From Globomyces pollinis-pini (lineage: Eukaryota > Chytridiomycota > Chytridiomycetes > Rhizophydiales > Globomycetaceae), in assembly GCA_025399215.1 (NCBI GenBank), contig MU621115.1:1-64000 (forward strand): a DNA stretch of 64,000 nucleotides. The letters are read 5' to 3'. This document shows positions 1 to 36,530 of this stretch, in pieces; position 1 is the first letter of the stretch; every line of letters begins with the position of its first letter. The notes beneath the pieces are model-generated. The model saw nothing but the letters and a program-made list of their open reading frames with translations, searched no databases and had not been told where the DNA came from. The position numbers and the translations under genes are program-made.

Positions 1-463
1 TTTGGTTATATGTTGGAGGGGGTTGCTGATATGTTGCTGGAGGTTGCTGGTAGACAGTTGATGGTGGGCTGTACACTGGTTGAGTAGGTTGATTGTATAC
101 TGGTTGATTATACATTGGTTGTGGATTCATCTCGTTTGGTATATTCTGTTTAGACTTCTTTCTTCTCTTTGAAATGCAAACACAACACAGTGCAATTAGC
201 ACTAAAAGAAAGATGATCCCACAAAGGACTTGCCATACCTTCACACCCCCAGAATTGTTTGCATTTGTATTGTAATCAGCTTGAATTGCACCTCCCAGCT
301 GTAGATCCTTTTTACATTGGACTGCAAACATGGATGTGCAAGAAGTAGCTAGACATTGTGAGCTGCTTGTTGCAGAATAGGATGCCACAAACGATGGTTT
401 ACATCCTCTCCCTTGGCAACAATTACACACACATGAACTAGTTGCTTTGATTGAAAAAGACAT
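1..463 (-). CDS. 8-Cys membrane protein family, member 1 (3' end outside window)
   Basis: The frame is open from an ATG at 463 down to the window edge, about 154 codons. It begins with a short Met-Ser leader and then the family cysteine pattern C-x-C-x-C-C-x4-C-x15-C-x4-C-x7-C. A hydrophobic membrane segment (about residues 80-100) and a basic stop-transfer run (KRRKK) follow, then a Pro/Gln/Tyr-rich tail with PPTY, a WW-domain ligand motif. The closest relative in the window is the gene at 1947-2969, which shares the CCQGRGC core and the CKKDLQLGGAIQAD stretch after the last cysteine. No classical signal peptide precedes the cysteines, so a reverse signal-anchor topology (N-terminus outside) is inferred. 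The function is unknown. The C-terminal part, probably with the glycine zipper and terminal box, lies outside the window. Confidence 0.8.
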   Translation of the reverse strand, partial: MSFSIKATSSCVCNCCQGRGCKPSFVASYSATSSSQCLATSCTSMFAVQCKKDLQLGGAIQADYNTNANNSGGVKVWQVLCGIIFLLVLIALCCVCISKRRKKSKQNIPNEMNPQPMYNQPVYNQPTQPVYSPPSTVYQQPPATYQQPPPTYNQ

Positions 464-1946: not shown

Positions 1947-2969
1947 TTAATAAGAATTATAGTCTGTTTGATCCACATTACCAGCACCATCATTCGAATA
2001 CGACGTGGTGTGTACTTCAGTTCCACCAAACGCATTAACAGTTTCGGTTGTATGGTTAAATGATGAAGCATTTTGATTTCCACCATCATAGCAGTCTGTT
2101 TGATCCACATTACCAGCACCATCATTCGAATACGACGTGGTGTGTACTTCAGTTCCACCAAACGCATTAACAGTTTCGGTTGTATGGTTAAATGATGAAG
2201 CATTTTGATTTCCACCATCATAGCCTCCGCCATAACCACCACTGTAGCCTCCACCATAACCACCACTGTATGAGCTATGGTGATCGTGATCATATCCATG
2301 TCCGCTATGATGATGTGAGTTGTTCAATGCCTGATTCAGCATAGCTCCAGCCGCTAGTCCACCAACTGCACCCACAGCACCAGCTGCTAATGGTGATACA
2401 CCAGAACTACCCTTCCCAAAACCACTTTGACCAGCACCATAAGGTTTTTGAACTGGAGGTGGATTATAAGTTGACTGTCCATATACAGGCTGTCCGTACG
2501 CTGGTTGGCCGTATGCAGGTTGCCCATAAGCTGGTTGCTGATTTGATGCATTTTGCTTCTGATCATATGGTTGCTGGGGAGGGGGATAGGATGGTGGTTG
2601 ATAAACTGGCTGATTTTGATATGGTTGTTGAGGAGGTACCATAACAATGTTGTTACTATCCACATATTGTTTCTGTTTTCTACTCCTTGAGATACAAAAG
2701 TAACAAAATCCGGCTACAACTGCAATAACTCCAACTACAATTGCAATTAAAATCCACCCGGCAATTGCAGTTCCTCTATTTGCATTTTGATCAAAATCCG
2801 CTTGAATAGCACCACCTAATTGCAAGTCTTTTTTACATTGAACAGGATAAAATCCAGTACAAGAAGTAGCTAAGCATTGAGAAGAGTCCTTAGCCATGAT
2901 ATTTCCCACGAAAACTGGTGAACATCCTCTACCTTGGCAACACTTGCAAACACAGCTCTTAGTTGACAT
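1947..2969 (-). CDS. 8-Cys membrane protein family, member 2 (long form)
   Basis: An intronless 340-residue protein. I chose the ATG at 2969 (MSTKSC) because all family members place the Met 2-10 residues before the first cysteine; the longer frame to 3038 adds an unsupported leader. Cysteines are at 6, 8, 10, 11, 16, 32, 37 and 45. Then come a membrane segment (about 74-96) and a basic stop-transfer region. The Pro/Gln/Tyr tail contains PPSY and repeated YGQPAYGQ-type units. A glycine/alanine-zipper segment (AGAVGAVGGLAAGAM) precedes a His-rich stretch and a Gly/Tyr-rich stretch. The C-terminal family box (GGTEV...YSNDGAGNV) is present twice through a perfect 132-bp duplication. The N-out, C-in topology is inferred. 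The function is unknown. Confidence 0.85.
   Translation of the reverse strand: MSTKSCVCKCCQGRGCSPVFVGNIMAKDSSQCLATSCTGFYPVQCKKDLQLGGAIQADFDQNANRGTAIAGWILIAIVVGVIAVVAGFCYFCISRSRKQKQYVDSNNIVMVPPQQPYQNQPVYQPPSYPPPQQPYDQKQNASNQQPAYGQPAYGQPAYGQPVYGQSTYNPPPVQKPYGAGQSGFGKGSSGVSPLAAGAVGAVGGLAAGAMLNQALNNSHHHSGHGYDHDHHSSYSGGYGGGYSGGYGGGYDGGNQNASSFNHTTETVNAFGGTEVHTTSYSNDGAGNVDQTDCYDGGNQNASSFNHTTETVNAFGGTEVHTTSYSNDGAGNVDQTDYNSY
1961..2224. repeat. Perfect 132-bp tandem duplication inside member 2
   Basis: Bases 1961-2092 and 2093-2224 read as identical. The unit is 44 codons, in frame, and spans the whole conserved C-terminal box, so the predicted protein ends with two copies of it. Complete identity implies a very recent duplication or an assembly artefact. 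Confidence 0.9.
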
Positions 2970-12195: not shown

Positions 12196-13355
12196 ATGTC
12201 TGCGTTAGATTTGAATACTTATTTCACTAGTGCTTTGAAAGAAGTTTTGAATTTCAATACTCATGATTTTCAATTTGATGCTATGCCATTCTATTCTACA
12301 CAATCCATGGTAACTACTGTGTTGGTGTACTTTTCCGTGATCTTTGGNNNNNNNNNNNNNNNNNNNNNNNNNNNNNNNNNNNNNNNNNNNNNNNNNNNNN
12401 NNNNNNNNNNNNNNNNNNNNNNNNNNNNNNNNNNNNNNNNNNNNNNNNNNNNNNNNNNNNNNNNNNNNNNNNNNNNNNNNNNNNNNNNNNNNNNNNNNNN
12501 NNNNNNNNNNNNNNNNNNNNNNNNNNNNNNNNNNNNNNNNNNNNNNNNNNNNNNNNNNNNNNNNNNNNNNNNNNNNNNNNNNNNNNNNNNNNNNNNNNNN
12601 NNNNNNNNNNNNNNNNNNNNNNNNNNNNNNNNNNNNNNNNNNNNNNNNNNNNNNNNNNNNNNNNNNNNNNNNNNNNNNNNNNNNNNNNNNNNNNNNNNNN
12701 NNNNNNNNNNNNNNNNNNNNNNNNNNNNNNNNNNNNNNNNNNNNNNNNNNNNNNNNNNNNNNNNNNNNNNNNNNNNNNNNNNNNNNNNNNNNNNNNNNNN
12801 NNNNNNNNNNNNNNNNNNNNNNNNNNNNNNNNNNNNNNNNNNNNNNNNNNNNNNNNNNNNNNNNNNNNNNNNNNNNNNNNNNNNNNNNNNNNNNNNNNNN
12901 NNNNNNNNNNNNNNNNNNNNNNNNNNNNNNNNNNNNNNNNNNNNNNNNNNNNNNNNNNNNNNNNNNNNNNNNNNNNNNNNNNNNNNNNNNNNNNNNNNNN
13001 NNNNNNNNNNNNNNNNNNNNNNNNNNNNNNNNNNNNNNNNNNNNNNNNNNNNNNNNNNNNNNNNNNNNNNNNNNNNNNNNNNNNNNNNNNNNNNNNNNNN
13101 NNNNNNNNNNNNNNNNNNNNNNNNNNNNNNNNNNNNNNNNNNNNNNNNNNNNNNNNNNNNNNNNNNNNNNNNNNNNNNNNNNNNNNNNNNNNNNNNNNNN
13201 NNNNNNNNNNNNNNNNNNNNNNNNNNNNNNNNNNNNNTAGTTGCCAAATGACTCCATTCTCTGGATACTTTGGTATCTGGGCAATTACTTCTTACTTAGT
13301 CTTGTTTGTTCAATTCTTTTCTAAAACGTACAAACCCAAGAAGAAGATAGATTAA
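12196..13355 (+). CDS. ELO-family fatty acid elongase 2 (interior in assembly gap)
   Basis: The N-terminus (12196-12347) and C-terminus (13238-13355) are visible; the interior is an 890-bp run of N. The first ~17 residues differ from elongase 1, then about 95 bp before the gap are identical to it. After the gap the sequence resumes at the position matching elongase 1 base 11299, first near-identically and then diverging. The C-terminus ends KPKKKID, basic like elongase 1 but without the KKxx end. The copy is probably functional but the gap prevents verification. The gap exceeds the matching elongase 1 segment by about 300 bp, so its size may be an estimate. Confidence 0.75.
12348..13237. other. 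Assembly gap (890 N)
   Basis: A run of undetermined bases inside elongase 2, flanked by sequence identical or nearly identical to elongase 1. This is the usual outcome when a recent duplicate collapses during assembly. Any frame read through it is meaningless. Confidence 0.98.
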
Positions 13356-16120: not shown

Positions 16121-16781
16121 ATGGATGTTGTGCTAGAGTTAATATTTGATGAAAAATGGATTGAAGAGAACCAGCATCTAGTGACTTTCTTGAATGGAAT
16201 TGTGATTGGATTGGCTGTTTGTTACGTCTTTATCTTGACCATTCGAAAAGTATTCATTTGACTCTGATTGTTAGAACTCAAAACCACAACACATTCAATC
16301 TGAGTTTAAACCATCTAGTGATGAAGATGATGATTGTAAAATGGTATGATGATATCAGCTTCAACTCGTAGGTTTTATTGGTGCGAAATGATTTAGGAAT
16401 GGGAAAAGGGAAAGCTGCAGCTCAATGTTGTCATGCTACTTTAGCAGCTTACAAAAAATCTTTGAATCATTCACAACAGACTCGAGATTGGCTTCACTCT
16501 TGGGAAACTTTTGGACAAGCAAAGATCACATTAAAATGTCCTGATGAAGATACCTTGTAATTTTTCAGACTTTAGGTTTATCAATTAGGCTAGAATTACA
16601 AAAGAAGGCGAGAAAGGAAGGATTAATAGCCTGCAGTATTCAAGATGCTGGTCGAACACAGATTGCAGCTGGATCTAGGACAGTTTGCGCTATTGGACCA
16701 GGTATGTACGCTAATGTTACTGATAAGAAAGGACCTGCTGATTTAATTGATAAAGTGACTGGTCATTTGAAGTTATACTAG
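16121..16781 (+). CDS. PTH2: Peptidyl-tRNA hydrolase 2
   Basis: Spliced CDS of 181 residues with four introns (25, 28, 32, 30 nt). It hydrolyses peptidyl-tRNA released from stalled ribosomes. An N-terminal hydrophobic segment (residues 24-42) anchors it as in human PTRH2 (Bit1), which sits on the mitochondrial outer membrane. An acidic linker (SSDEDDD) follows, then the catalytic domain with [49 protein letters not shown]. The fourth intron (30 nt, within the IGPG codons) is a multiple of three and has no stop, so its retention would insert 10 residues into a conserved loop. The family normally has no insertion there, which supports splicing. Confidence 0.95.
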
Positions 16782-16880
16782 ATTTTACGCAATATTTATG
16801 TATTGCTGAATAGTAATATAAAACCATAATAATATTCAACGAATCCTTTTATTTAAGAAAAAGAAATGATTGTGTTTTCT

Positions 16881-18078
16881 TTAGTTGGGTTTTAGAGTAT
16901 CAGTCCAAGTTTTTAAAATATAATTGTCTACGATGGTACGTTTAATAAAAGCAGTTTGCTACAATCAATCATAAAAATAATACCATAAGTTGTTGTGGGT
17001 GTGGTCTCGCGTTCACATCTTTAGTCAAACAAAGGACACAAAACTCGTCGAATTCAGATGTAAAGATACCTTTAGGTAAGGTTGGACTAGGTTCCTGAGT
17101 AATGAACTGCATCATATCAAAGGCAGTTGCCATAGCTTCCACTGGAAATGGAAATTTAGCCAACGCAACTTCCATTATTGTTAATCCTAAACTCCACACA
17201 TCTGAAGCTGGTGTACATGGTGACCCTTCCCTGATTCTTTCTGGCTATACAAAATGAAATCAAAATATCATTACAGCCAAGAAACAGTTAGTTCCTACAA
17301 ATGTATCTGCAACCGTATTATTAGTTTCTTTGGAAATTCCAAAATCGGCCAACTTTGCAAATCCTTCTGAACACATCAATATATTGCCGGGTTTAATATC
17401 TACAGTTTCAACATATCATCTACATACCGCGATGAACAATTTTATGATTTTCATATAGATAGATTAAACCTTGCAAGATTTGAACTGTAATTCCAGCAAC
17501 AGGTATTTCAGGAATAGGACCATTTTTTGCATATATAGTTTCCAAAGTTCCCAAATCCATATATTCCATCATAATTGAAATATCATCATTACCCAAAAAT
17601 GCACCTAGAAAAGATACAATATATGGATGTCTACACATTCGCATTATTCTCAACTCTCTTAGAATTGATTTTTCAATCTTGTCTTGATTTTCATCTGTTG
17701 CTGCTAATTTAATCACCTACAATCAAATCAGATATTTAAGATTACTTTTCTAGCCATTTTCAAACCAGTAGGACGATGTAATACTTTGGATACAGCTCCA
17801 CCTGAACCTTGACCTAAATTAGCCATAAATTCTAAATCCTCAATTTTGAATTCATATTTTGAATCTTTACGTACATTAGCATCATTTAATTTTTTAGAAT
17901 TTTTTGTATCTTGAGTATTGGGTTCAATAGGTACAGATAACGTTGATAAGGATCCAACAGATTTCAGTTGTGGAGCGCCAACTCGTTTACGAGATAATCC
18001 TGGTGAATGAAATGGTGATCCACCAGCTGGAATGGATAATTGTTGAGTGCTTGATATCGGAGGAGGATTAATACCCAT
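16881..18078 (-). CDS. MAP kinase kinase, Ste7-like
   Basis: Spliced CDS of 361 residues with four introns (29, 28, 30, 25 nt). The ATG at 18078 (MGINPPP) is preferred over an upstream in-frame non-ATG extension. A Ser/Pro-rich leader of about 85 residues precedes the kinase domain: Gly-rich loop LGQGSGGAV, Lys in KMARKVI, MMEYMDLGTLE, catalytic HRDIKPGNI, DFG (ADFGIS), activation segment with Thr/Ser sites before VADTFVGT, APERI, SDVWSLGL. MAPKKs phosphorylate Thr and Tyr in MAPK activation loops. MEYMD and VADTFVGT favour the mating/filamentation class (Ste7/Fus7) over Pbs2 or Mkk1. An osmosensor Sho1, which in yeasts feeds Ste11 into Pbs2 and Ste7 branches, is encoded at 43281-44272. Confidence 0.9.
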
Positions 18079-18842
18079 TTTTTTTAAAATGTAATGAAAT
18101 AAGATTATCAAATCTCTCTTGTTTGTATTGGTTTATTGTTTACATGATATCCTCCTCCCTTTGTCTTTCACATAGAACACTTTCCATCTGAATTTTAACA
18201 CTAATACATCCATGTATTATCATTGAATTCAATTTTATTAACGTTATTCATACTGTGTTGTTTAAATCGTATAGCCACATTAATCACAACTCAAGAATGA
18301 CTTGATTTTATCATTTGCCACTATGCAAATGACGTTCATTTCTATTATAGGCAACAAAATCAACAAGTCTTCATTTTAATAATGAACTATACAAATTAGA
18401 AAAGAAAGAATTAAAATTGATGATTTTACAATCAGTAATCATTACATCGATTTCATTTGGGGTTCTCTTGTTTTTCGCGTTTGTGGTTTGGTGGCACTTG
18501 TAACCACACAAAACGAACAAAGAGACTAGAATTCCGTTGGCTCAGCTTTTAAATTAAAAAATATTTCGTTGTCTTTTTGGATATCATGAATGGTCGAACT
18601 TGATACATTTCCAAGTTGTTTGAATGTCTTGGTCTTCTTTTACACTCACAGACAGATCAATGCGTCCGAAAAAGACTCGGCTTAATCACATTCAACAGTA
18701 ATGTGATTAACAAACAATAATAAGCAATCTCAAAACGTTGATTAACAAAAGTTCAGTGAATTTTTTATATTTTATTAAGACATAACTAAAATTTTGAATT
18801 AAGTATTAAGAGGTGTGTACAGAAAGGAAAAAAAACACAAGT
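18079..18842. other. Intergenic, upstream of MAPKK and downstream of GATA gene
   Basis: 764 bp, AT-rich, with no supported frame. It should hold the MAPKK promoter (just above 18078) and the GATA-factor 3' UTR. No RNA gene or repeat seen. Confidence 0.5.
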
Positions 18843-19784
18843 TTAACAGGCAATGGAGCGGAGAGTGTTCCAGCAGTCTTCAGTAACATCCAAAACAGTC
18901 ATTTCTACATCCATATTAGCTTTCATGTAATAAGCCATTTTAGGAGCAAAACATTGGGCCAACACAGTCTGAAATTCTATAGTACGGTGGGCAGGTAATC
19001 TTTCTAGTAAGTCGGCAAATTCGTTAGTCAAAATTTGCATTTTAGTCATTTGATCCATTGGTTGAGTCAAAGCGACTTGTAAAGGAGTCATGACTTGTTG
19101 TCTTGGAATTTCTGAAATGACTGGGAATTGGTTGAAGGCAATAGAATCAATAGGTGAATGGACCCCATTGTTGTTGTTCATGAGGAGAGATGATGAGAGA
19201 GTAGGTACAAATGAAGGCATGGAATAAGTTTGGTTGGAGGAGAATGTGTTGGATAAACCAATATTTACATTGACGATATCGTCTTTTACAGGGGATTGCA
19301 AAGGAGTGAAGAGTTGCTTTTGCTTCTTGACGGCATTGCGGGCCTTAGGAGTACGTTGTTCAGGGAAAAAGTCCTTTTCTTTACGGTAAGCTTTAACAGG
19401 AGAAACAGGAGACTTAGGAGAGATTGGAGAGTCCATAGTTTTAGCTTTCTTTTGTTGGGTTGTGTTTCCTGCTTTACACAAATGATGACGGTTTTCACCA
19501 GTATTTAAGATTTTCCCTCTTCTCCATTTAACCCCACAAGAGTTGCATAAGTTTGTAAAGTTGGCAGGTCCATGTCTCCACATTGGAGTTTGAGTAGCAC
19601 CACAATAATTACAACGACGAGTAGTTCCAGTGTTATCGAACACTAGCGGTTTAGGTTCTTCATCCAAAGCATCAGCTTTTCTTTTTGGAGAGGTAGGCAA
19701 GGCTGAAAGAGTAGGTGAAGGTAAACCATTAGGAGTCAAGTCAGCAGTTTGAATGGTGAGTTTTGTAGGCTTTGATAAGTTCAT
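18843..19784 (-). CDS. GATA-type zinc finger transcription factor
   Basis: An intronless 313-residue protein. One GATA finger with cysteines at 58, 61, 80 and 83 (C-x2-C-x18-C-x2-C) contains CGATQTPMWRHGP and LCNSCGVKWRRGK, so DNA binding to GATA-like sites is expected. Several SP sites follow (SPISPKSPVSPVK), possible proline-directed kinase targets, with basic patches that could be nuclear localisation signals (KKQK). The middle is Ser/Asn-rich. The C-terminal ~90 residues (MTPLQVALTQP to the end) are less repetitive and may form a separate helical domain. The finger resembles those of fungal regulators and plant GATA factors with the WRRGK end. Targets cannot be inferred. Confidence 0.92.
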   Translation of the reverse strand: MNLSKPTKLTIQTADLTPNGLPSPTLSALPTSPKRKADALDEEPKPLVFDNTGTTRRCNYCGATQTPMWRHGPANFTNLCNSCGVKWRRGKILNTGENRHHLCKAGNTTQQKKAKTMDSPISPKSPVSPVKAYRKEKDFFPEQRTPKARNAVKKQKQLFTPLQSPVKDDIVNVNIGLSNTFSSNQTYSMPSFVPTLSSSLLMNNNNGVHSPIDSIAFNQFPVISEIPRQQVMTPLQVALTQPMDQMTKMQILTNEFADLLERLPAHRTIEFQTVLAQCFAPKMAYYMKANMDVEMTVLDVTEDCWNTLRSIAC

Positions 19785-21685
19785 TAAAAATACAATTTGA
19801 TGGTTTTTTGAGTCGGATTCTGTTTGTATTTAAATGAAAATAATGCAAGGAATCCCATGTTCAAGCCATCAGGCTTTTGCGCACAGATTCTCGGGGGGAA
19901 ATAGCGAACGCCTCGTGATTTGAGGGCCCTGCGTCGCGACCTCTTCCAAACTAACCTTCAAAGCCCACTACGTATCCCGACTAGTTCTATTACCCATCTG
20001 CTGGCTGCTAGTTGCTTGTAATAAAAATGGCGACGTGTCATTTTGGTTGGTTCTTTCACACCTTCCGCACCAATGACCGTCTTTTGTAGACCAAATATAA
20101 ACTGTCCGTTCTCCTCTTGTTTGTCTGTTGCTCAGAAACATATTATTTTCTTCTCTTGAGTCGATATCAATTCATTGGCCTTTTCTAATTATAGCCAATG
20201 ACCATCAATTCCTCTTCCAATATTACTTGATTCGTTCTTGGAAGATTCCAAACATGTTTCAGTGCTACCTACCCTTTTGGACGACAACCTCCAAAAATAA
20301 CACCAACTCAGTCACCATCAAACTAGCATATGAATCAACGCAACCTCATCTTTATTCATTGGAGTTTATTGCTTTCGTATGCAGCGGTCGATAAAAAGTC
20401 TTTCACGAAAGACATTTCCGTGTGATAAAATGAAACTGATGAAATCAATGTGACCTTTTGGGAAACTCATGATTTCCTTTTACATCACTAAAATTAACTG
20501 TCACACCAGCCAACTTTAATTAAGATAGCGTTTCTCAAAATCAATGATAGTCATTCTATGACGTATAATTCGATAATAGTAAAGTCGGAACTTACCACAA
20601 TGAACGTTTGGACGATGGCCCACGTTACGTAAGTGAAGCAGGTAGGCTCCAATTGTCCATATGCATCGACCTAGTCTGGCCAACTCTGGCCAACTCCGAC
20701 CAAGTTCGATAGCCTCAAAAAACGAGTGGTTACAAAGTCTTACAAGAATGGGGCTTCTACTAAGGTTGGTGAGACTTTGTCTAACCAAAGACTGAGGCTT
20801 CGAGTTTGATTGTTGGTAAAGGGGCATGAGGCGATGGTCTAGTTCACGGTCCAATGGGCTTTTTCAATATCCCAACCCCAATTTTTTCAATCTTTTGTTA
20901 ATTAAACTACAATTCAACATCGAACTACAGTTTAATATCTAACTGCAGTATGTACTCTATCAACCCCATTGAATCAACATGAGTGGCCCATTGACATACC
21001 GGGTCCACACACGTTAAATCATATCATCCATAAATTACCAACTAAAGGGTCTAGTACTAGCGTATCCTTCAACGGTTAAACAACAAATCGTCTTCTTTCA
21101 GAACAATGAAACGGCCAATGCTTAGGCTGAAAGTGGGCCATCAAAGGTGTCTTTCATTGAGTAGATGATGGGCTCCATTTACACGAACCGCTGCCCATGA
21201 CTCATTCTCAGCCAACGTTCTTGATTAAAACTATAGAATCATCATCAATCTGTCTTTTGGATATATTGTGAACGTTCGTGAGCTATGGGAACGTTGACAA
21301 AGAACGTTTTGGTTTAATTGGTAACCAGGTTGATGTGGCATTTCACGGTATTTACTAGTAGTCAACGCAACTACTCAACGTTGTCCCGGGGATTCAAATA
21401 TACTCAATACTGGTATCGTAGAGATTCAAATCCATTTATTACTTAACTAACTGAAAATGTTGGTGGTTTAATCGCTTATCTAATCTTCTCTAGGTACCTG
21501 ACTTTCGGTGATAGCACATCTTATCTCAACTTCACCCACCACCATTCCATACCTTATTAATTTTCCATTTCAAAAACGTGATTTTTAGTCAACTTGATTG
21601 TTTCTGATTTTTATTCAAATGCTATGGTTATTCTAGAATTCCATGAAAAGCTGTTATGGATTGAAACTGCAATGTCCTAATGCTC
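19785..21685. other. Largest gene-free stretch (1.9 kb)
   Basis: Lies between the GATA factor start and the 3' end of the voltage-sensor-like gene. Near 19860-20000, just upstream of the GATA gene, it is relatively GC-rich and contains the palindrome GTCGCGAC. Around 20680-20710 there are short direct repeats of CTGGCCAACT. A 112-codon minus frame at 20516-20854 lacks hydrophobic segments, domains or splice support. I found no tRNA, rRNA or transposon features. It may be a long GATA-factor promoter. Confidence 0.4.
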
Positions 21686-29804: not shown

Positions 29805-30380
29805 CTATAACGGATGTTTTGAATCTGGAGATGCCGATTTCTGTTCAATGGGTTCCAAATTGCTGTACCTATCCCGATGTAAAGATGAAAATAGTGGACT
29901 CAGCGACGAGCTATTTCGTCTCTTTGCGTATCCATCTTCATTGTTTAGATCTAGTGTTGCATCCTTTGAAAAGTAGTCAGGTTTATCGTTTAATAATACA
30001 ATTCCAAAAAAAATTATACAAATTACCAACATGCAAAGCATAGCTGAGACTGCTATAATGCGCACTGGTTCGTCAATATAGTGGTGAACTGATTTGTGAT
30101 GTTTTGGAGAATGAGTGTGAGTCGAACTGGCAGTTGTCGTTCCTACACTTAAAACAAACGAAATACCAGTAGGGTTACTATTAACAGCTTGGAAAGAAGG
30201 ATTTTGAGAAGTGAATCTAGTCCTGATTTTTGTAGGAAAAGCCAAGTTATGGGGACAATCATTTGGGTATGCATGGGTGCATCCACTTGCCGTGCATTCC
30301 CCAGAGGATAATACATTGATCAATCCGACTATGATCGGTGTACAGGCATATCCGCTGCAGCAACTGCAGATGCATGACAT
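29805..30380 (-). CDS. 8-Cys membrane protein family, member 3 (short-tail form)
   Basis: An intronless 191-residue protein. The 8-Cys domain starts at residue 3 (C3, 5, 7, 8, 13, 29, 34, 42), keeping the family spacing. A longer juxtamembrane spacer rich in Ser/Thr/His (about residues 55-105) separates it from the membrane segment (about 108-132). The cytoplasmic tail is charged and Ser-rich, without the Pro/Gln/Tyr region, glycine zipper or C-terminal box. With the two distal genes at 35385 and 36069 it forms a short-tail subgroup starting MSCIC. The function is unknown. Confidence 0.8.
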   Translation of the reverse strand: MSCICSCCSGYACTPIIVGLINVLSSGECTASGCTHAYPNDCPHNLAFPTKIRTRFTSQNPSFQAVNSNPTGISFVLSVGTTTASSTHTHSPKHHKSVHHYIDEPVRIIAVSAMLCMLVICIIFFGIVLLNDKPDYFSKDATLDLNNEDGYAKRRNSSSLSPLFSSLHRDRYSNLEPIEQKSASPDSKHPL

Positions 30381-30480
30381 TTTGGAAGTTAGTTAAAGAA
30401 CAACTTTTTAACAACTCCGCCATCCTATCAATTCAATAATGTAAAATTTAACTCCAAATAGTTTATTAAAAAAACCAACA

Positions 30481-31238
30481 CTACCAGGAATCGGTAGTTG
30501 TCTGGTTGATGTTACCGAAGCCATCGTTATTATACGTAGTGGTTTGTTGTTCTGTTCCAAAGGGTGTATACGATGTAGTTGAATTTTCGTAATGGGTAGC
30601 AGTATTATTATTATATCCTCCTGAGTTATATCCTCCTCCATGGTGATGATGGTGACGACCTCCTCCAGAAAGTGCATTGTTTAATAATGCACCACCAACT
30701 AAACCCGCTGCCAATCCTCCTGCCCCTGCTAGTGCTGGATTTACACCTGATGATTGCTGAGGTGCTGGCGCGTATGCTGGTTGTCCATACCCATAACCTG
30801 GTTGCTGATATGTTGGGGGAGTATTGTACATCGGTGGTTGGGAATACGTTGGTTTTGAATTCCTTCTACATGCCATTACACAACAGCCAATTATTAGAGC
30901 AAGTATAACAATAACAATTATTAATGACGTGAATGAAAATGAACCTAGTGGTTAAATTATCGATCTAGTTACTTCCCCTTGTTCCTGCGCGGTTACCTGT
31001 ATTTCCATTATTTCCATTATTAGGAGAACTGTTAAACTGTGTAGTAATCTTTCCTGGAGATGCGAGATTTTTCATACATGGTCCTAACAATAGATGAATA
31101 TAAATTAAATAAACCTGGAAATGCGGAAGTACAGCTCGCAGCTACACATTGAGATGCGACTTGCGCATTTATAGAACCAATCAGAGTAGTGACGCAATTA
31201 ATACCTTGGCAGCAAAAACAAGTACATGATGATGGCAT
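30481..31238 (-). CDS. 8-Cys membrane protein family, member 4 (long form)
   Basis: Spliced CDS of 232 residues with exons 31238-31115, 31083-30973 and 30944-30481 (introns 31 and 28 nt). The first intron splits the codon just before the eighth cysteine, and the resulting spacing (x7) matches the other members exactly, which supports the splice. After an Asn/Gly-rich spacer and membrane segment comes a tail with PPMY and PPTY (PPxY motifs), a glycine zipper (AGAGGLAAGLVGGALL), His5, and the C-terminal box (GTEQQT...YNNDGFGNINQT) ending DSW. It shows that the family retains its pattern through splicing. Confidence 0.82.
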
Positions 31239-31396
31239 CAGAAAGGTTAAAAACACATTTTTGAAGAGTCTGTTCTCTGTCGGAGTTTAATTACGGCAGC
31301 AAATCTAAACGCTGATGCACTAGACAATATGAATTTATAATCAGTTAGATATATTATAAAAGAAGTTGAACCAATATTATTTAGTTTAATAAGTAC

Positions 31397-32168
31397 CTAG
31401 AAATCAACATTAATAGTATAATACATTCGAACCGGATAGATAGAATTTGGGAAGGCCGACTGTTTCGCTTCTTTAACTAGCGTCAATCCAGCTTTTTCAA
31501 AGATACTCTTCCATAATCCATCCGATCTGGTACAGGACTTTACAAATAAATCAAAATAAACTTACTGAATCTTCGTCATCATAAATTATTCCAGCTTCAG
31601 CAACATTTTCTTTGATTCCAATGTATCCACCATTCAAAGAATCTTTACATCTTTTCAAGAAAACCACTAAATCATCATCAGTTAAGTGGCTCAAGACCCA
31701 TTGACACCATATTAAATCATATCGCCCTGCTTCGGGATTAAAATTCTGTAATCCTGTGGGGATGTACTGTTCTACTCTATCATCTAATCCTTTCTCTACA
31801 AACAACTCTTTGGCTTTGACCAAAAACTTTTCGGTTTGTTCTACTAGATCTACATCAAACAATTATCAACTATCTTTTTGATTTGTTTACCAACGGTTTG
31901 GAAGTTTTTCAATAGAAAGACTTCCGATACTCTTCCAATACCAGCTCCGCAATCTTCAAACAATTTAATAAAATGGTTAATTACCACAAGCTCTATGGTT
32001 ATTCAACTTTTTGCTTTCGAGAAACTCCTTGATAAATTTGTTACTACCAAGGGCATCAATTGCAGTCAGTCTTCCATAACCTCCTAACATCCCTTCAACT
32101 GATGATTCGATATTATCCCAGTACTGCTTTGCATCGGAATACCAAGTGGGAGACTCTTGACTCAACAT
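31397..32168 (-). CDS. NTMT1: Protein N-terminal methyltransferase (NTMT1/Tae1)
   Basis: Spliced CDS of 223 residues with three introns (31, 41, 28 nt). It transfers methyl groups from S-adenosylmethionine to the alpha-amino group of proteins with an exposed X-Pro-Lys N-terminus, such as ribosomal proteins. Seen: YWDNIESSVEGMLGGYG at the start, the AdoMet-binding DCGAGIGRV motif, VDLVE, GLQNFNPE, IWCQWVLSHLTDDD, KENV and DSSCTRSD near the end, all matching the family. The full length agrees. It separates the minus-strand and plus-strand halves of the second 8-Cys cluster. Its location may be incidental; the neighbouring 8-Cys proteins start Met-Ser/Met-Pro and lack the X-Pro-Lys motif. Confidence 0.94.
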
Positions 32169-32520
32169 TGGATGTTTCAAAAACCTTAACTTTTTGTGTC
32201 AGTTTCAGACAGAATTTGATAAAGTAGAAGACTCACAAAACCATCAAATACAATTCCATACTGATAAAAAATGGTACGGATTTCAGCCAGAAGGTGTTAC
32301 TGATTGGGATACTTTTACCAAGAAGATTTGATTGATCTTTATATCGACACATTCAATTTGATTTGAATAAATATGCAATCAAAAAAGTGACGGAGATTCT
32401 TTGTGAATAAATAATTCCATGTGTACAGTTGAATGGCGTGGTAAAATACGGATTGTTTATTTATACACAAAACAACTATCAAACACAAATATACGGCTAG
32501 ACTATCATTAAATCTCTCAA
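32169..32520. promoter_or_regulatory. Divergent promoter, NTMT1 / 8-Cys member 5
   Basis: 352 bp between divergent start codons, AT-rich, without a supported frame. No further element could be assigned. Confidence 0.4.
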
Positions 32521-33297
32521 ATGTCAAGTAGCTGTATTTGCAATTGCTGCCAAGGACTGAATTGTATAGCTACTCTTGCGGGATCTATCAATGTGAACTC
32601 TCCTGCAATGTGTCTCTCAACTGCTTGTACACAATTCTATCCAGTCTCATGTGCAAAAAATCTTACATTGCATGGGAAAATAGAGGCCATTTATTCTGGA
32701 TCAAACCAAAAACCACCGAGCTCAAACACAATACCAACATGGGTGTATCTGATTGCAATTCTTGGAGTCATTTCAGTGCTGGGTAGTATCGTTTTTTGTG
32801 TTATGAAGAGAAAGAAGGACAACCCAGTGCCATATCAACCTCCAATGCAGCCAGCATATCAGCAGCAACCTGTGTACATCAATCCCCAACCAGTCTATGC
32901 CCCTCAACAACAGATCTACGCACAGCAACAACCATATGCTGCTTATCCCCCTCAACCCCAGTATGGAGCACCACCAGCTTACAATCAATCCATGTATAGC
33001 AAACCACCTGGATCGGGCATGAATCCAGTCATGGCAGGAGCCGGTGGATTTGCTGCTGGTGTTGTTGGTGGTGTGCTATTGGACCAGGCTCTACACAATT
33101 CACATCATCATAACCATTATGGTCATCATGATAGTAACCATCATGGATACGAGAAACATGATAACCAAATCCAAACCCAAGAGATACATAACGTATTCGA
33201 ATCTGTTAACCCAAATGGTGGAACTGAGGTCCAAACATTCAATTATTCCAGTGATAATAATGGCAATGTAAATCAGTCATCCACTGATCAATGGTGA
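32521..33297 (+). CDS. 8-Cys membrane protein family, member 5 (long form, type sequence)
   Basis: An intronless 258-residue protein showing every family module. Cysteines at 5, 7, 9, 10, 15, 31, 36, 44 are followed by a potential N-glycosylation site (KNLTLHG) and a short spacer. The membrane segment is at about 73-96 with a KRKK stop-transfer signal, supporting N-out, C-in topology. The tail is rich in Gln, Pro and Tyr and contains PPAY, then a glycine zipper (AGAGGFAAGVVGGVLL), a His-rich block (HHHNHYGHHD) and the C-terminal box (NPNGGTEVQTFNYSSD, ending TDQW). It terminates in TGA, direct evidence that TGA is a stop here. The function is unknown. Confidence 0.85.
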   Translation: MSSSCICNCCQGLNCIATLAGSINVNSPAMCLSTACTQFYPVSCAKNLTLHGKIEAIYSGSNQKPPSSNTIPTWVYLIAILGVISVLGSIVFCVMKRKKDNPVPYQPPMQPAYQQQPVYINPQPVYAPQQQIYAQQQPYAAYPPQPQYGAPPAYNQSMYSKPPGSGMNPVMAGAGGFAAGVVGGVLLDQALHNSHHHNHYGHHDSNHHGYEKHDNQIQTQEIHNVFESVNPNGGTEVQTFNYSSDNNGNVNQSSTDQW

Positions 33298-33456
33298 TAA
33301 AACATCTTTCAAATAAACTCTGTCAAATCTTATATTTCTTACAGATTGCAAGATCTTAGACATGATATGGTAAATATCAATTATGATTTAGTATGCGAAG
33401 TATACTGTGGATGACGTGTATAAGTTTGAACAATATAGAGTCAAATTTCTTTACGA

Positions 33457-34184
33457 ATGCCCAGTTGCGATTGTTTCTGCTGTCAAGGAGTAGGTTGTGT
33501 AATTCAATCGGTTGGATCTGTGCAAGTGTCACAATCGAGTACTTGTTTAACCACTCTATGTACGCAAAATTTTCCAATATCTTGTGCAAAAAATTTGACT
33601 TTATCGGGAAAGATTACAGCAACATATTCAACTGCATCAGCCGTTAATAGCAGTGGAACAGGAAGCGTCATTGGAATCATTTTTGGTCTTATTTTCCTTG
33701 CTGTGTTCTTTTCAATCATCGTAATCATCATTAGACGAGCGTGCTGTATCCAAAACAGCTATCAAACTGTTGTACCAATCAATCCAATGTACCAGCAACC
33801 CCCAGTACCAATGTATGGATACAACCAGCCTGGATTTGTTCAACCTACGTACGCTCAAGGATATGGTTACGCACCAGGTGTGAACTATGCGCCAGGGGTT
33901 AACTATGGTGGAGCAGCGGTTGGGTTTGGAGCAGGTATGGTTGGGGGTGCGATACTCTCAAATCAGTGTAAGCCCAACACTTCACTTATTTAATAGTTAA
34001 CAATCACCATCATCATAATAATGGTGGAGGTAGCTATACAAATCGCAATGATAACTATGGTGCTGTAGAGATCAGCAATGTCACAGAAACTGCCAATCCT
34101 TACGGAGGGGTAGAGGTCCAAACGTTTAATTACTCAAACGACGGAAATGGTAATGTTCAGCAAACATCCACAGATGCATGGTAA
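33457..34184 (+). CDS. 8-Cys membrane protein family, member 6 (long form)
   Basis: Spliced CDS of 232 residues with exons 33457-33967 and 33997-34184 (29-nt intron). It has the invariant 8-Cys pattern, KNLTLSG sequon, membrane segment near residues 66-91 and a basic RRA. The tail is Tyr/Pro/Gly-rich with a duplicated APGVNYAPGVNYG segment. The glycine zipper (GAGMVGGAIL) precedes the intron, and the His-rich stretch and C-terminal box (NPYGGVEVQTFNYSNDG, ending DAW) follow it. The PPxY motif is not obvious here; PPVPMY is the nearest. Adjacent to members 5 and 7 in the same orientation, consistent with tandem duplication. Confidence 0.83.
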
Positions 34185-34442
34185 TAAACATATAGATTTA
34201 TTCTATCTGCCTCTCTTTTTATTTCAATCATCTGTGCCTCATTGCCTTTGAACATTTTTGATCTGAAGATAATCATTCGTCTGATTAATATAAGCGTTAA
34301 GATTCAAGAGACAATAAGTTACAATGAAGCGTAGTTTGAATAGCCAAAATGAAATTAGATGCACTTATATCACATGTCTAAGAAAACGCGTCCAGAAAAA
34401 TGAGTTTTGTCATATCTAGACTATATTTTTTTAACTTTTCAG

Positions 34443-35213
34443 ATGTCCTGTGAATGCCGCTGTTGTGTGGGTCTGAATTGTCAAATCAGTTTGATAGGGT
34501 CATTTAAAGTCGCTAGTCCTACCCTTTGCCTCAGTTCATCTTGTACACAAAATTTTCCTGTAGGTTGTATGAAAAACGAAACATTGCATGGACAAATCAA
34601 TGCATCGTACTCTAGCTCGGTCAGTACGGGTAGTACTGTATCAACAACCAGTTCCTCTTCAAACGGGTCTATTATTGGACCTATCATCGGAGGTGTGATT
34701 TTCATGTGTTTTGTAGCTTGCTTCATTAAAATGTGTCGAAATCGAAGGCAAATAACTGCAGTGATTAACAATCCTCCAATGGTTCACGCTCCGCCAATTA
34801 TGGTCCATTCACCTCCCGTTTATGGTCAGCAAATGGTTGGTGGTGCATACCCAAACAGCTATCCACCACAAGGCTATCCACCACAGGGATACCCACCACA
34901 GGGATACCCACCACAAGGATATCCACCACCGCACGGAGTTTCTTATGCTTATCCACATCCCGGGTACGCAGTAGCCGGAGGAGTAGCAGTTGGAGTTGTC
35001 GGTGGGATTGTTGTTCATGACGCTATGCAGCATCATCATATTCATCATGATGTCCACCACAATGTCCATCAACCAGCTTACAATCAAGAACCTGTGTATG
35101 TACACAATGTAACAGAGACCTACAACCCATCTGGTGGGGTAGAAGTTCAAACCTATGAATATTCGAATGACGGAGCAGGGAATGTTCAGCAAACTTCAAA
35201 CGACGTCTTTTAA
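34443..35213 (+). CDS. 8-Cys membrane protein family, member 7 (long form, PPQGY repeats)
   Basis: A 256-residue protein starting at 34443 (MSCECRC). An upstream in-frame start at 34407 is less likely, because a TTTTCAG directly before the ATG could be a 5' UTR intron acceptor. It has the 8-Cys domain, KNETLHG sequon, a Ser/Thr spacer, a membrane segment near 82-104, PPVY, and four to five perfect or near-perfect YPPQG repeats. A zipper-like AGGVAVGVVGG and a His-rich block precede the terminal box (NPSGGVEVQTYEYSNDG, ending NDVF). YPPQG repeats resemble those in rhodopsin tails, annexins and lipid-associated proteins, which suggests flexible, self-associating tails; no function is proven. 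Confidence 0.83.
   Translation: MSCECRCCVGLNCQISLIGSFKVASPTLCLSSSCTQNFPVGCMKNETLHGQINASYSSSVSTGSTVSTTSSSSNGSIIGPIIGGVIFMCFVACFIKMCRNRRQITAVINNPPMVHAPPIMVHSPPVYGQQMVGGAYPNSYPPQGYPPQGYPPQGYPPQGYPPPHGVSYAYPHPGYAVAGGVAVGVVGGIVVHDAMQHHHIHHDVHHNVHQPAYNQEPVYVHNVTETYNPSGGVEVQTYEYSNDGAGNVQQTSNDVF
34861..34929 (+). repeat. 15-bp tandem repeat encoding PPQGY units
   Basis: Four to five copies of a 15-bp unit (CCACCACAAGGATAT type) with a few synonymous differences. All are in frame in 8-Cys member 7. Copy number is likely to vary between strains; that is inference. Confidence 0.8.
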
Positions 35214-35384
35214 TAGATTATCTTGAAATAAACAAATTGTGGCCTATCAGTTTATACGTTCAATGAATACACTTTAATTCTGCGATTAGTACTGTATTTT
35301 TTGAAGAGATTAGTTTAACCAGATTGTGGCAGTTATTTATGTTTACCAAACAAGTTAGAAGTCATACTAAAAACCAATCTTATC

Positions 35385-35837
35385 ATGTCATGCATTTGCT
35401 ATTGCTGTAATGGAATCAATTGTTCAGAACGCTACGTTGGTCAGTTTGGTTCTCTCTCAAACACCAGTTGTATTCCAACTGGTTGTATCACAAACTTTCC
35501 TCACGTATGTAGTATGGATGAAAAACAAACCAACATAGTAAAACCCTATTACACCGGGATAATCTCTAATGCTGTCCCTATCAAATATGCCGAGCATACA
35601 AAAATCATTGCCCTCGTTGTATTGATTGTGACATTTACTTCATGTGCTTTCTTCATTTACTATTGGAGATCTGCGAAATCAAGGCATCCTGTAACTGAGA
35701 GACCTGGTGATTTGAACCCTCATACTCATATGCGAGAATTGGGAGATCAGGAAATAATCACAACACATTCCCTTGAATCACCAGGCATGGATTCTCCCCA
35801 CATTTCTGTTGTTAACATCGAAAAACAATCAGTGTAA
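35385..35837 (+). CDS. 8-Cys membrane protein family, member 8 (short-tail form)
   Basis: An intronless 150-residue protein. The 8-Cys domain begins at residue 3 (MSCICYCC) with the exact family spacing; a short spacer and a membrane segment (about 73-95) follow. The tail is about 55 residues, charged, with Ser/Pro (SPGMDSPHISV), and lacks the zipper, His block and terminal box. Its best relatives in this window are the genes at 36069 and 29805. The function is unknown. Confidence 0.8.
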   Translation: MSCICYCCNGINCSERYVGQFGSLSNTSCIPTGCITNFPHVCSMDEKQTNIVKPYYTGIISNAVPIKYAEHTKIIALVVLIVTFTSCAFFIYYWRSAKSRHPVTERPGDLNPHTHMRELGDQEIITTHSLESPGMDSPHISVVNIEKQSV

Positions 35838-36068
35838 TCTATTGCACCTAAAATAGAATGTACATTATAAACTGCTTTGTGATTTAAAAAGAATCTCATT
35901 TTATCGCTTTAAAAACTATTACATGTACCTACCCATATAATAAATGTCCAAATTGCATTCTTTTTTTGTTTTCTGTGTATAAAATGGTAAAGTTATTGAG
36001 AGCTAGATTGTTCTGAGGCGTTTGTGTATCTAGTCAGAGATTTCCACGATTCCAAACTAGATAACTTC

Positions 36069-36530
36069 ATGTCTTGCATCTGCTCTTGTTGTATAGGAAC
36101 CAATTGCGTAGCAAGTATAGTTGGTCAATTTGCAGTCGCATCTACGAATCTCTGTGTATCCAAATCATGTGAAACTAACTATCCTCAACTATGTGTAAAA
36201 TCAACTAATGTTAGGGGAATAATCAAAACTTATTACTCAGCTACACCAATAGAAGTACCAAATTATCAAGATAATTCTACTGTGATTATAATCATTGTCG
36301 TGATGATTGCAATGACAACATTAATAATGTGTATCAACTTTTGTTGCCTTTCGCCAGGTGCATTTGGATCAGAGCCTCTGTCTCCCATGACTCCTGGTAG
36401 TCCCAGCAATGGTGCTACTCTGATGCATATGCCAGGATATAGAGGACCAGCAATAACCGCGTCTCATCCACTGGATTCACCAGACAGTGAAAGCGAAGAC
36501 AAAGACCCAACGGATAAAATAATCCCCTAA
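36069..36530 (+). CDS. 8-Cys membrane protein family, member 9 (short-tail form)
   Basis: An intronless 153-residue protein starting MSCICSCC at 36069; the in-frame extension upstream uses no ATG. It has the full 8-Cys spacing, a membrane segment (about 75-98), then a Pro/Ser-rich tail (SPMTPGSPSNGA, HPLDSPDSESED) that ends acidic. It shares the VGQF core after the fifth cysteine with member 8. The last gene of the plus-strand run. Confidence 0.8.
   Translation: MSCICSCCIGTNCVASIVGQFAVASTNLCVSKSCETNYPQLCVKSTNVRGIIKTYYSATPIEVPNYQDNSTVIIIIVVMIAMTTLIMCINFCCLSPGAFGSEPLSPMTPGSPSNGATLMHMPGYRGPAITASHPLDSPDSESEDKDPTDKIIP

Follow-up and report, generated by a model that had tools for sequence, protein, structure and literature searches.

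Contig C26 of Globomyces pollinis-pini begins with a 64,000-base stretch, hereafter the window, that carries nine genes of a membrane protein family defined by eight cysteines at fixed spacing. The host is a pollen-dwelling chytrid fungus of the order Rhizophydiales (Chytridiomycota), its genome comprises 18.5 Mb in 459 contigs, and the family has at least ten members in it. In all ten, the pattern is exactly C-x-C-x-C-C-x4-C-x15-C-x4-C-x7-C, and this N-terminal head is followed by a membrane segment. Six of the seven members with long tails also contain PPxY motifs, and the same genome encodes, to judge from its domain matches, a HECT ligase with three WW domains. The long forms are therefore read here, tentatively and with a probability of about 0.45, as PY-motif trafficking adaptors or receptors, with disulfide-bonded heads that would face outwards although no signal peptide directs them there.

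The cysteine pattern is the firmest feature of the family. Eight of the window genes show it in an unspliced frame; the ninth, member D, shows it only once a 31-nt GT-AG intron (31084–31114) that splits the pattern has been removed, as the first-pass annotation of this DNA had proposed. Its further claim that nine window members share one spacing holds for all nine. A pattern search returned eight matches in the window, and none when it was run on 50 random sequences drawn from the window's order-2 Markov model. The first cysteine lies at residue 3 to 11, in line with the 2–10 residues past the methionine given earlier. Identities between the heads of the nine window members are only 24–67%, so the spacing has been kept while the remainder of the head has changed; beyond the cysteines, only the serine preceding the first of them and the glycine following the C-C pair are invariant in these nine. 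The tenth member, P0007 (BC833DRAFT_611389; also J), was deposited for the same species from another contig of 7,907 bases, and has the same spacing.

Two subfamilies can be distinguished, seven long forms (A, B, D, E, F, G and J) and three short ones (C, H and I). In the long forms, the membrane segment is followed by a Pro/Gln/Tyr-rich region; a glycine zipper, a run rich in His and a C-terminal block that is conserved (G-x-E-x-Q/H-T...Y...D...G-N) are also present in the six complete ones. The tails of the short forms are unrelated and extend 61 to 62 residues past the membrane segment. Members A to D lie on the minus strand and E to I on the plus strand, which replaces an earlier count of three minus and six plus or partial. 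The window genes are as follows.

Member A, 2..463, minus strand: long by its tail, 154 residues seen, incomplete because the window starts at base 1 of the contig; eight-cysteine domain, membrane segment 79–97, SKRRKKSK, one PPxY.
Member B, 1947..2969, minus strand: long, 340 residues; eight-cysteine domain, membrane segment 68–86, PPSY, glycine zipper, doubled C-terminal block.
Member C (P0006), 29805..30380, minus strand: short, 191 residues; eight-cysteine domain, membrane segment 111–129, without PPxY.
Member D (P0002, BC833DRAFT_655849), 30481..31238, minus strand: long, 232 residues as deposited; three exons, the second intron (30945–30972) deduced by comparing P0002 with the DNA.
Member E (P0001), 32521..33297, plus strand: long, 258 residues; eight-cysteine domain, membrane segment 77–95, KRKK, PPAY, glycine zipper 169–187, conserved C-terminal block.
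Member F, 33457..34184, plus strand: long, 232 residues when spliced; exons 33457–33967 and 33997–34184, intron 33968–33996, without PPxY.
Member G, 34443..35213, plus strand: long, 256 residues; eight-cysteine domain, membrane segment 77–95, PPVY, YPPQG repeats, glycine zipper.
Member H (P0003), 35385..35837, plus strand: short, 150 residues; eight-cysteine domain, membrane segment 74–92, without PPxY.
Member I (P0004), 36069..36530, plus strand: short, 153 residues; eight-cysteine domain, membrane segment 71–89, without PPxY and without a basic cluster after the segment.

The strongest hints of a mechanism come from the PPxY tail and the conserved C-terminal block, neither of which the first-pass annotation mentions. 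WW domains of NEDD4/Rsp5 ligases classically bind PPxY. The motif is found twice in D, once each in A, B, E, G and J, and in none of the three short forms. The total of seven motifs compares with a mean of 1.4 when whole tails are shuffled, and none of 2000 shuffles reaches seven. Shuffling within blocks of 30 residues, so that regions rich in Pro and Tyr stay so, still leaves the count of motif-bearing members unusual (6 vs 2.7, p 0.0085). On the plus strand of contig C284, WW matches above cut-off at 19094, 19437 and 19640 are followed within 2 kb by HECT pieces at 20050–21071, and a by-eye reading of the frames (locus 16500–21500) finds a C2-like piece upstream of the WW domains. This C284 ligase is the likely partner of the PPxY tails.

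Domain scans covered eight of the ten members, all except A and D: B, C, E, F (first-exon frame only), G, H and I were compared with the Pfam models (E ≤ 1) and those of NCBIfam (E ≤ 0.1), and P0007 with Pfam at E ≤ 0.01. In these eight, no model reaches its cut-off over the cysteine region, in keeping with the earlier remark that the family could not be placed in a known one. A weak NCBIfam match in C (residues 34–111; 12.6 bits vs a cut-off of 310) overlaps the end of that region. An XYPPX match in G (23.9 bits, cut-off 19) lies in the tail only, and SARAF was rejected for P0007 (20.7 vs 30.8).

Protein searches with 480, 2798 and 687 candidates (E limits 0.01, 1 and 10) named no organism besides G. 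pollinis-pini; since the known members A, F and G were themselves missed, the reach or coverage of these searches is limited, and the result does not show that the family is absent elsewhere. They returned E, D, H, I, C, P0007 and a fragment identical to residues 1–209 of B from a 1,100-base contig; only D and P0007 carried the species name. Three pattern matches came from viral contigs and 57 from prokaryote ones, none of them confirmed as a relative. Apart from the nine members on C26, genome searches with E, I, G, P0007 and P0005 turned up just two matches, both weak and confined to the tail, on C124 (E 0.028 and 0.28). The gene for P0007 was not recovered (best 44%), so the searched assembly is incomplete for the family. 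Limited literature searches found no paper on this family.

An AlphaFold2 model covers residues 1–105 of E. The predicted local distance difference test (pLDDT), averaged in ten-residue blocks, is 79–89 over residues 1–60; strands are modelled at 3–11, 18–25 and 52–59 and a helix at 33–39, before a longer helix at 73–100. This would be a three-stranded, one-helix fold. In the model of G, the C-terminal block forms three strands (218–255, ten-residue pLDDT blocks 80–86), which is compatible with a second domain outside the cell; the glycine-zipper helix (185–195) is predicted with low confidence. With Foldseek, the best E values were 0.38 and 0.034 for the head model and 0.22 for the G model, so neither had a match at E ≤ 0.001. 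A sequence search of solved structures with E 1–105 gave five matches (E 0.036–0.26) to membrane-proximal parts of major histocompatibility complex proteins and of a receptor, whereas searches with two profiles stayed empty up to E 10.

The distribution of charge makes an outside N-terminus the likelier topology, as had been claimed at the outset. Lys and Arg are more numerous in the 15 residues after the membrane segment than in the 15 before it in seven of ten members, by two or more in A, B, E, F, G and H and by one in D; the reverse occurs in none. By this measure, the small cysteine-rich head is probably outside the cell. The proteins were also described as signal-less, and no upstream in-frame methionine is found within 60 codons in any of the nine window members, so the first exon shows no sign of a signal peptide (an unseen upstream coding exon aside). 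A stop lies within 3 to 6 codons upstream of the start in A, C, E and F, the frame of B is open without a methionine, and the deposited P0007 and P0002 start at the same methionine. The start codon of G directly follows a pyrimidine-rich stretch ending in CAG (34413–34442) that resembles a splice acceptor, a feature absent from the other members; a leader intron before G is possible. All ten members have at least one cysteine between the midpoint of the membrane segment and the fourteenth residue after it, a count without a control set; such juxtamembrane cysteines would suit palmitoylation at the inner face.

The family was thought to reflect rapid recent expansion, and the divergence of its copies speaks against this. 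Six paralogue pairs were compared among the eight single-frame coding sequences. In four pairs, the proportion of synonymous differences (pS) is 0.78–0.83, beyond correction, and the synonymous distances (dS) of the other two are 1.15 and 2.36; with values this high in all six pairs, the copies are old and do not stem from a recent burst. The proportion of nonsynonymous differences (pN) is below pS in all six, which indicates that the genes are kept by selection. In the tree, only the grouping of A with B reaches starred support, and C, H and D have long branches. The sole recent-looking event in the array is an exact 132-nt tandem repeat (1961–2092 and 2093–2224), which doubles the C-terminal block of B and could be either a recent event or an assembly artefact.

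Taken together, the PPxY motifs, the WW-HECT ligase in the genome and the precedents of Rcr1/Rcr2 and of Shisa-like proteins and CYYR1 favour the PY-motif adaptor or receptor for the long forms. Its mode of action would be as follows. A reverse signal-anchor would insert these small proteins without a signal peptide, leaving the N-terminus outside; the head would then fold outside the cytosol into a compact domain held by four putative disulfides. In the long forms, the proline/tyrosine-rich tail would reach the cytosol, where its PPxY motifs could recruit a NEDD4/Rsp5-type ligase. The head would select a ligand or membrane partner, and the tail would tag the resulting complex for sorting by endocytosis or in endosomes. 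Having head and anchor but no PPxY, the short forms might, as a guess, serve as partners or decoys. Topology, disulfides, ligase binding, cargo and the role of the short forms are all deduced in this scheme.

Several observations weigh against the PY-adaptor scheme. Member F is long and has no PPxY, the three short forms likewise lack it, and the total number of motifs exceeds that in 30-residue block shuffles only marginally (7 vs 3.6, p 0.06). The predicted template modelling score (pTM) of the E model is 0.49; in G, pLDDT falls under 50 over residues 43–69 and the third head strand is absent, so that the two head models disagree on this strand. The positive-inside stop signal that had been described applies to the seven members with a charge excess; C, I and P0007 tie across the segment and give no charge signal. 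The N-x-S/T sequons once cited for exposure of the head lend topology no support, as they are not enriched on the head side (10 in ten proteins vs a shuffle mean of 11.2); the excess lies in the tails (18 vs 11.1), where the internal repeat of B contributes duplicates. The single membrane segment of the original description is certain for the short forms only. At the glycine zipper, each of the six complete long forms shows another, weaker hydrophobic stretch, whose best 19-residue Kyte-Doolittle mean runs from 1.25 (F) to 1.79 (G). The C-terminal block has an N-x-T at its start in five of these six: D, F and G share the alignment column, B and J have the sequon shifted by one or two columns, and the sixth form, E, has N-V-F instead. 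Sequon and zipper together could mark a second membrane crossing that places the C-terminus outside. A fuller proposal, which we consider unlikely, is that the head represents a novel disulfide domain that reaches the outside with no signal peptide, and that the chytrid PY-adaptors arose independently of animal Shisa/CYYR1; the tail may then recross at the zipper to expose a second, three-stranded and glycosylated domain, leaving the PPxY loop as the sole cytosolic part.

The same charge bias would also fit surface receptors or adhesins, the reading of the first-pass annotation, with a head that binds substrate (pollen wall, polysaccharide or other cells) and a tail that acts as spacer or in signalling, without any role for a ligase. 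A tandem family of old, diverged paralogues agrees with such a function, which is nevertheless doubtful: a head of ~60 residues is small for an adhesin, no lectin-like fold was found, neither a glycosylphosphatidylinositol signal nor a long Ser/Thr stalk was noted, and the PPxY motifs in six of seven long tails are left unexplained. If the N-terminus were instead cytosolic, its cysteines could form a cluster that carries palmitate or holds a metal such as Zn or Cu, the latter being the alternative named in the first-pass annotation; the tail would then lie outside or in the cytosol as well. C-x-C-x-C-C is also a motif of metal-thiolate type, and the lack of a signal peptide, the surplus of tail sequons and the missing charge bias in three members would all fit. 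The charge pattern, never reversed and placing the tail inside in seven of ten, and the invariant long-range spacing with a modelled sheet, which suits a folded disulfide domain, make this arrangement improbable. We also regard as improbable that the proteins are β-subunits of transporters or channels, as TMEM9 is for ClC-3/4/5, in which a disulfide-stabilised head would dock on an outer loop while the tail gates or sorts the transporter. The hhalign score against TMEM9 (PF05434) is 10.8, a value reached by 119 of 150 shuffles with the cysteines fixed, and the spacing beyond C-x-C-x-C is unlike the chytrid pattern. PF05434 was not listed in the eight members scanned, and a genome search with it found no match in Globomyces or in control genomes, which makes that search uninformative.

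Other features of the window are few. Between A and B, the minus strand holds a 134-residue frame without the cysteine head (911–1315), with one hydrophobic segment, PPPAY and an SP-rich tail; it gave no Pfam match at E ≤ 0.01 and is perhaps a head-less relative of the family. The minus strand between D and E (31250–32200) resembles, by eye, what we take to be a protein N-terminal methyltransferase. An 890-N run (12348–13237) lies inside an apparent second copy of the ELO fatty-acid elongase gene of 10568. Scans of the window gave no Rfam match and no tRNA.

Among known systems, DUF2076 (PF09849) matches one of the scanned members above its cut-off. E reaches 48.9 bits vs a cut-off of 38 over residues 101–253, tail and glycine zipper, with head and membrane segment outside the match. 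For member D, a precomputed annotation names PF09849; scores below cut-off were obtained for G (20.5), F (11.8) and P0007 (17.4 bits), and B, C, H and I do not reach it either. Mere composition was rejected as the cause: of three shuffles of the tail of E within blocks of 15 residues, one was not listed and the others scored 17.8 and 19.6 bits. Shuffling only the 24-residue zipper reduced E to 19.1 bits, so the likeness sits in the zipper; four of nine shuffles in this control were scored. CFEM (PF05730) is likewise a fungal eight-cysteine extracellular domain, yet its published spacing (PMC4530338), or a loosened version of it, fits none of the ten members, and the same text reports CFEM as absent from Chytridiomycota.

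Single-pass PY-motif proteins that sort other membrane proteins are known as well; PMC5578492 and PMC11399591 give yeast Rcr1 and Rcr2 and animal Shisa-like proteins and CYYR1. Rcr1/Rcr2 are fungal proteins with a single membrane segment and PY motifs that bind Rsp5 (PMC5578492). Member B scores 22.2 bits against this family (PF12273) in its membrane and tail part, below the 27.8-bit cut-off and with the eight-cysteine head outside the match; none of the other six members scanned at E ≤ 1 matched the model, nor did P0007 at E ≤ 0.01. The STMC6 proteins (Shisa, CYYR1, WBP1 and VOPP1) are described in PMC5578492 and PMC11399591 as short single-pass trafficking adaptors with a cysteine-rich N-terminal domain and PPxY in a proline-rich cytosolic tail. 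STMC6 proteins have six cysteines in C*C*CC*CC order plus a signal peptide. The chytrid proteins are also small membrane proteins with a cysteine-rich N-terminal head, with PPxY in six of the seven long tails and in none of the short ones, but their heads have eight cysteines, none of the ten shows the C*C*CC*CC order in its first 70 residues, and, with the same reservation about an upstream exon, no signal peptide is seen. The long forms thus resemble Shisa/CYYR1 or Rcr1 and are members of neither.

Chytrid zoospores are naked cells, and if the PY-adaptor reading is true, these proteins become candidate surface or endosomal sorting proteins for them. The eight-cysteine spacing provides a ready-made marker by which other chytrids can be screened for the family, and convergent recruitment of NEDD4/Rsp5 ligases by small transmembrane proteins would become testable. 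An early-diverging fungus would then have built its own cysteine-headed PY-motif membrane adaptors, in a layout that is known in animals from the Shisa-like proteins and occurs in reduced form in yeast Rcr1.

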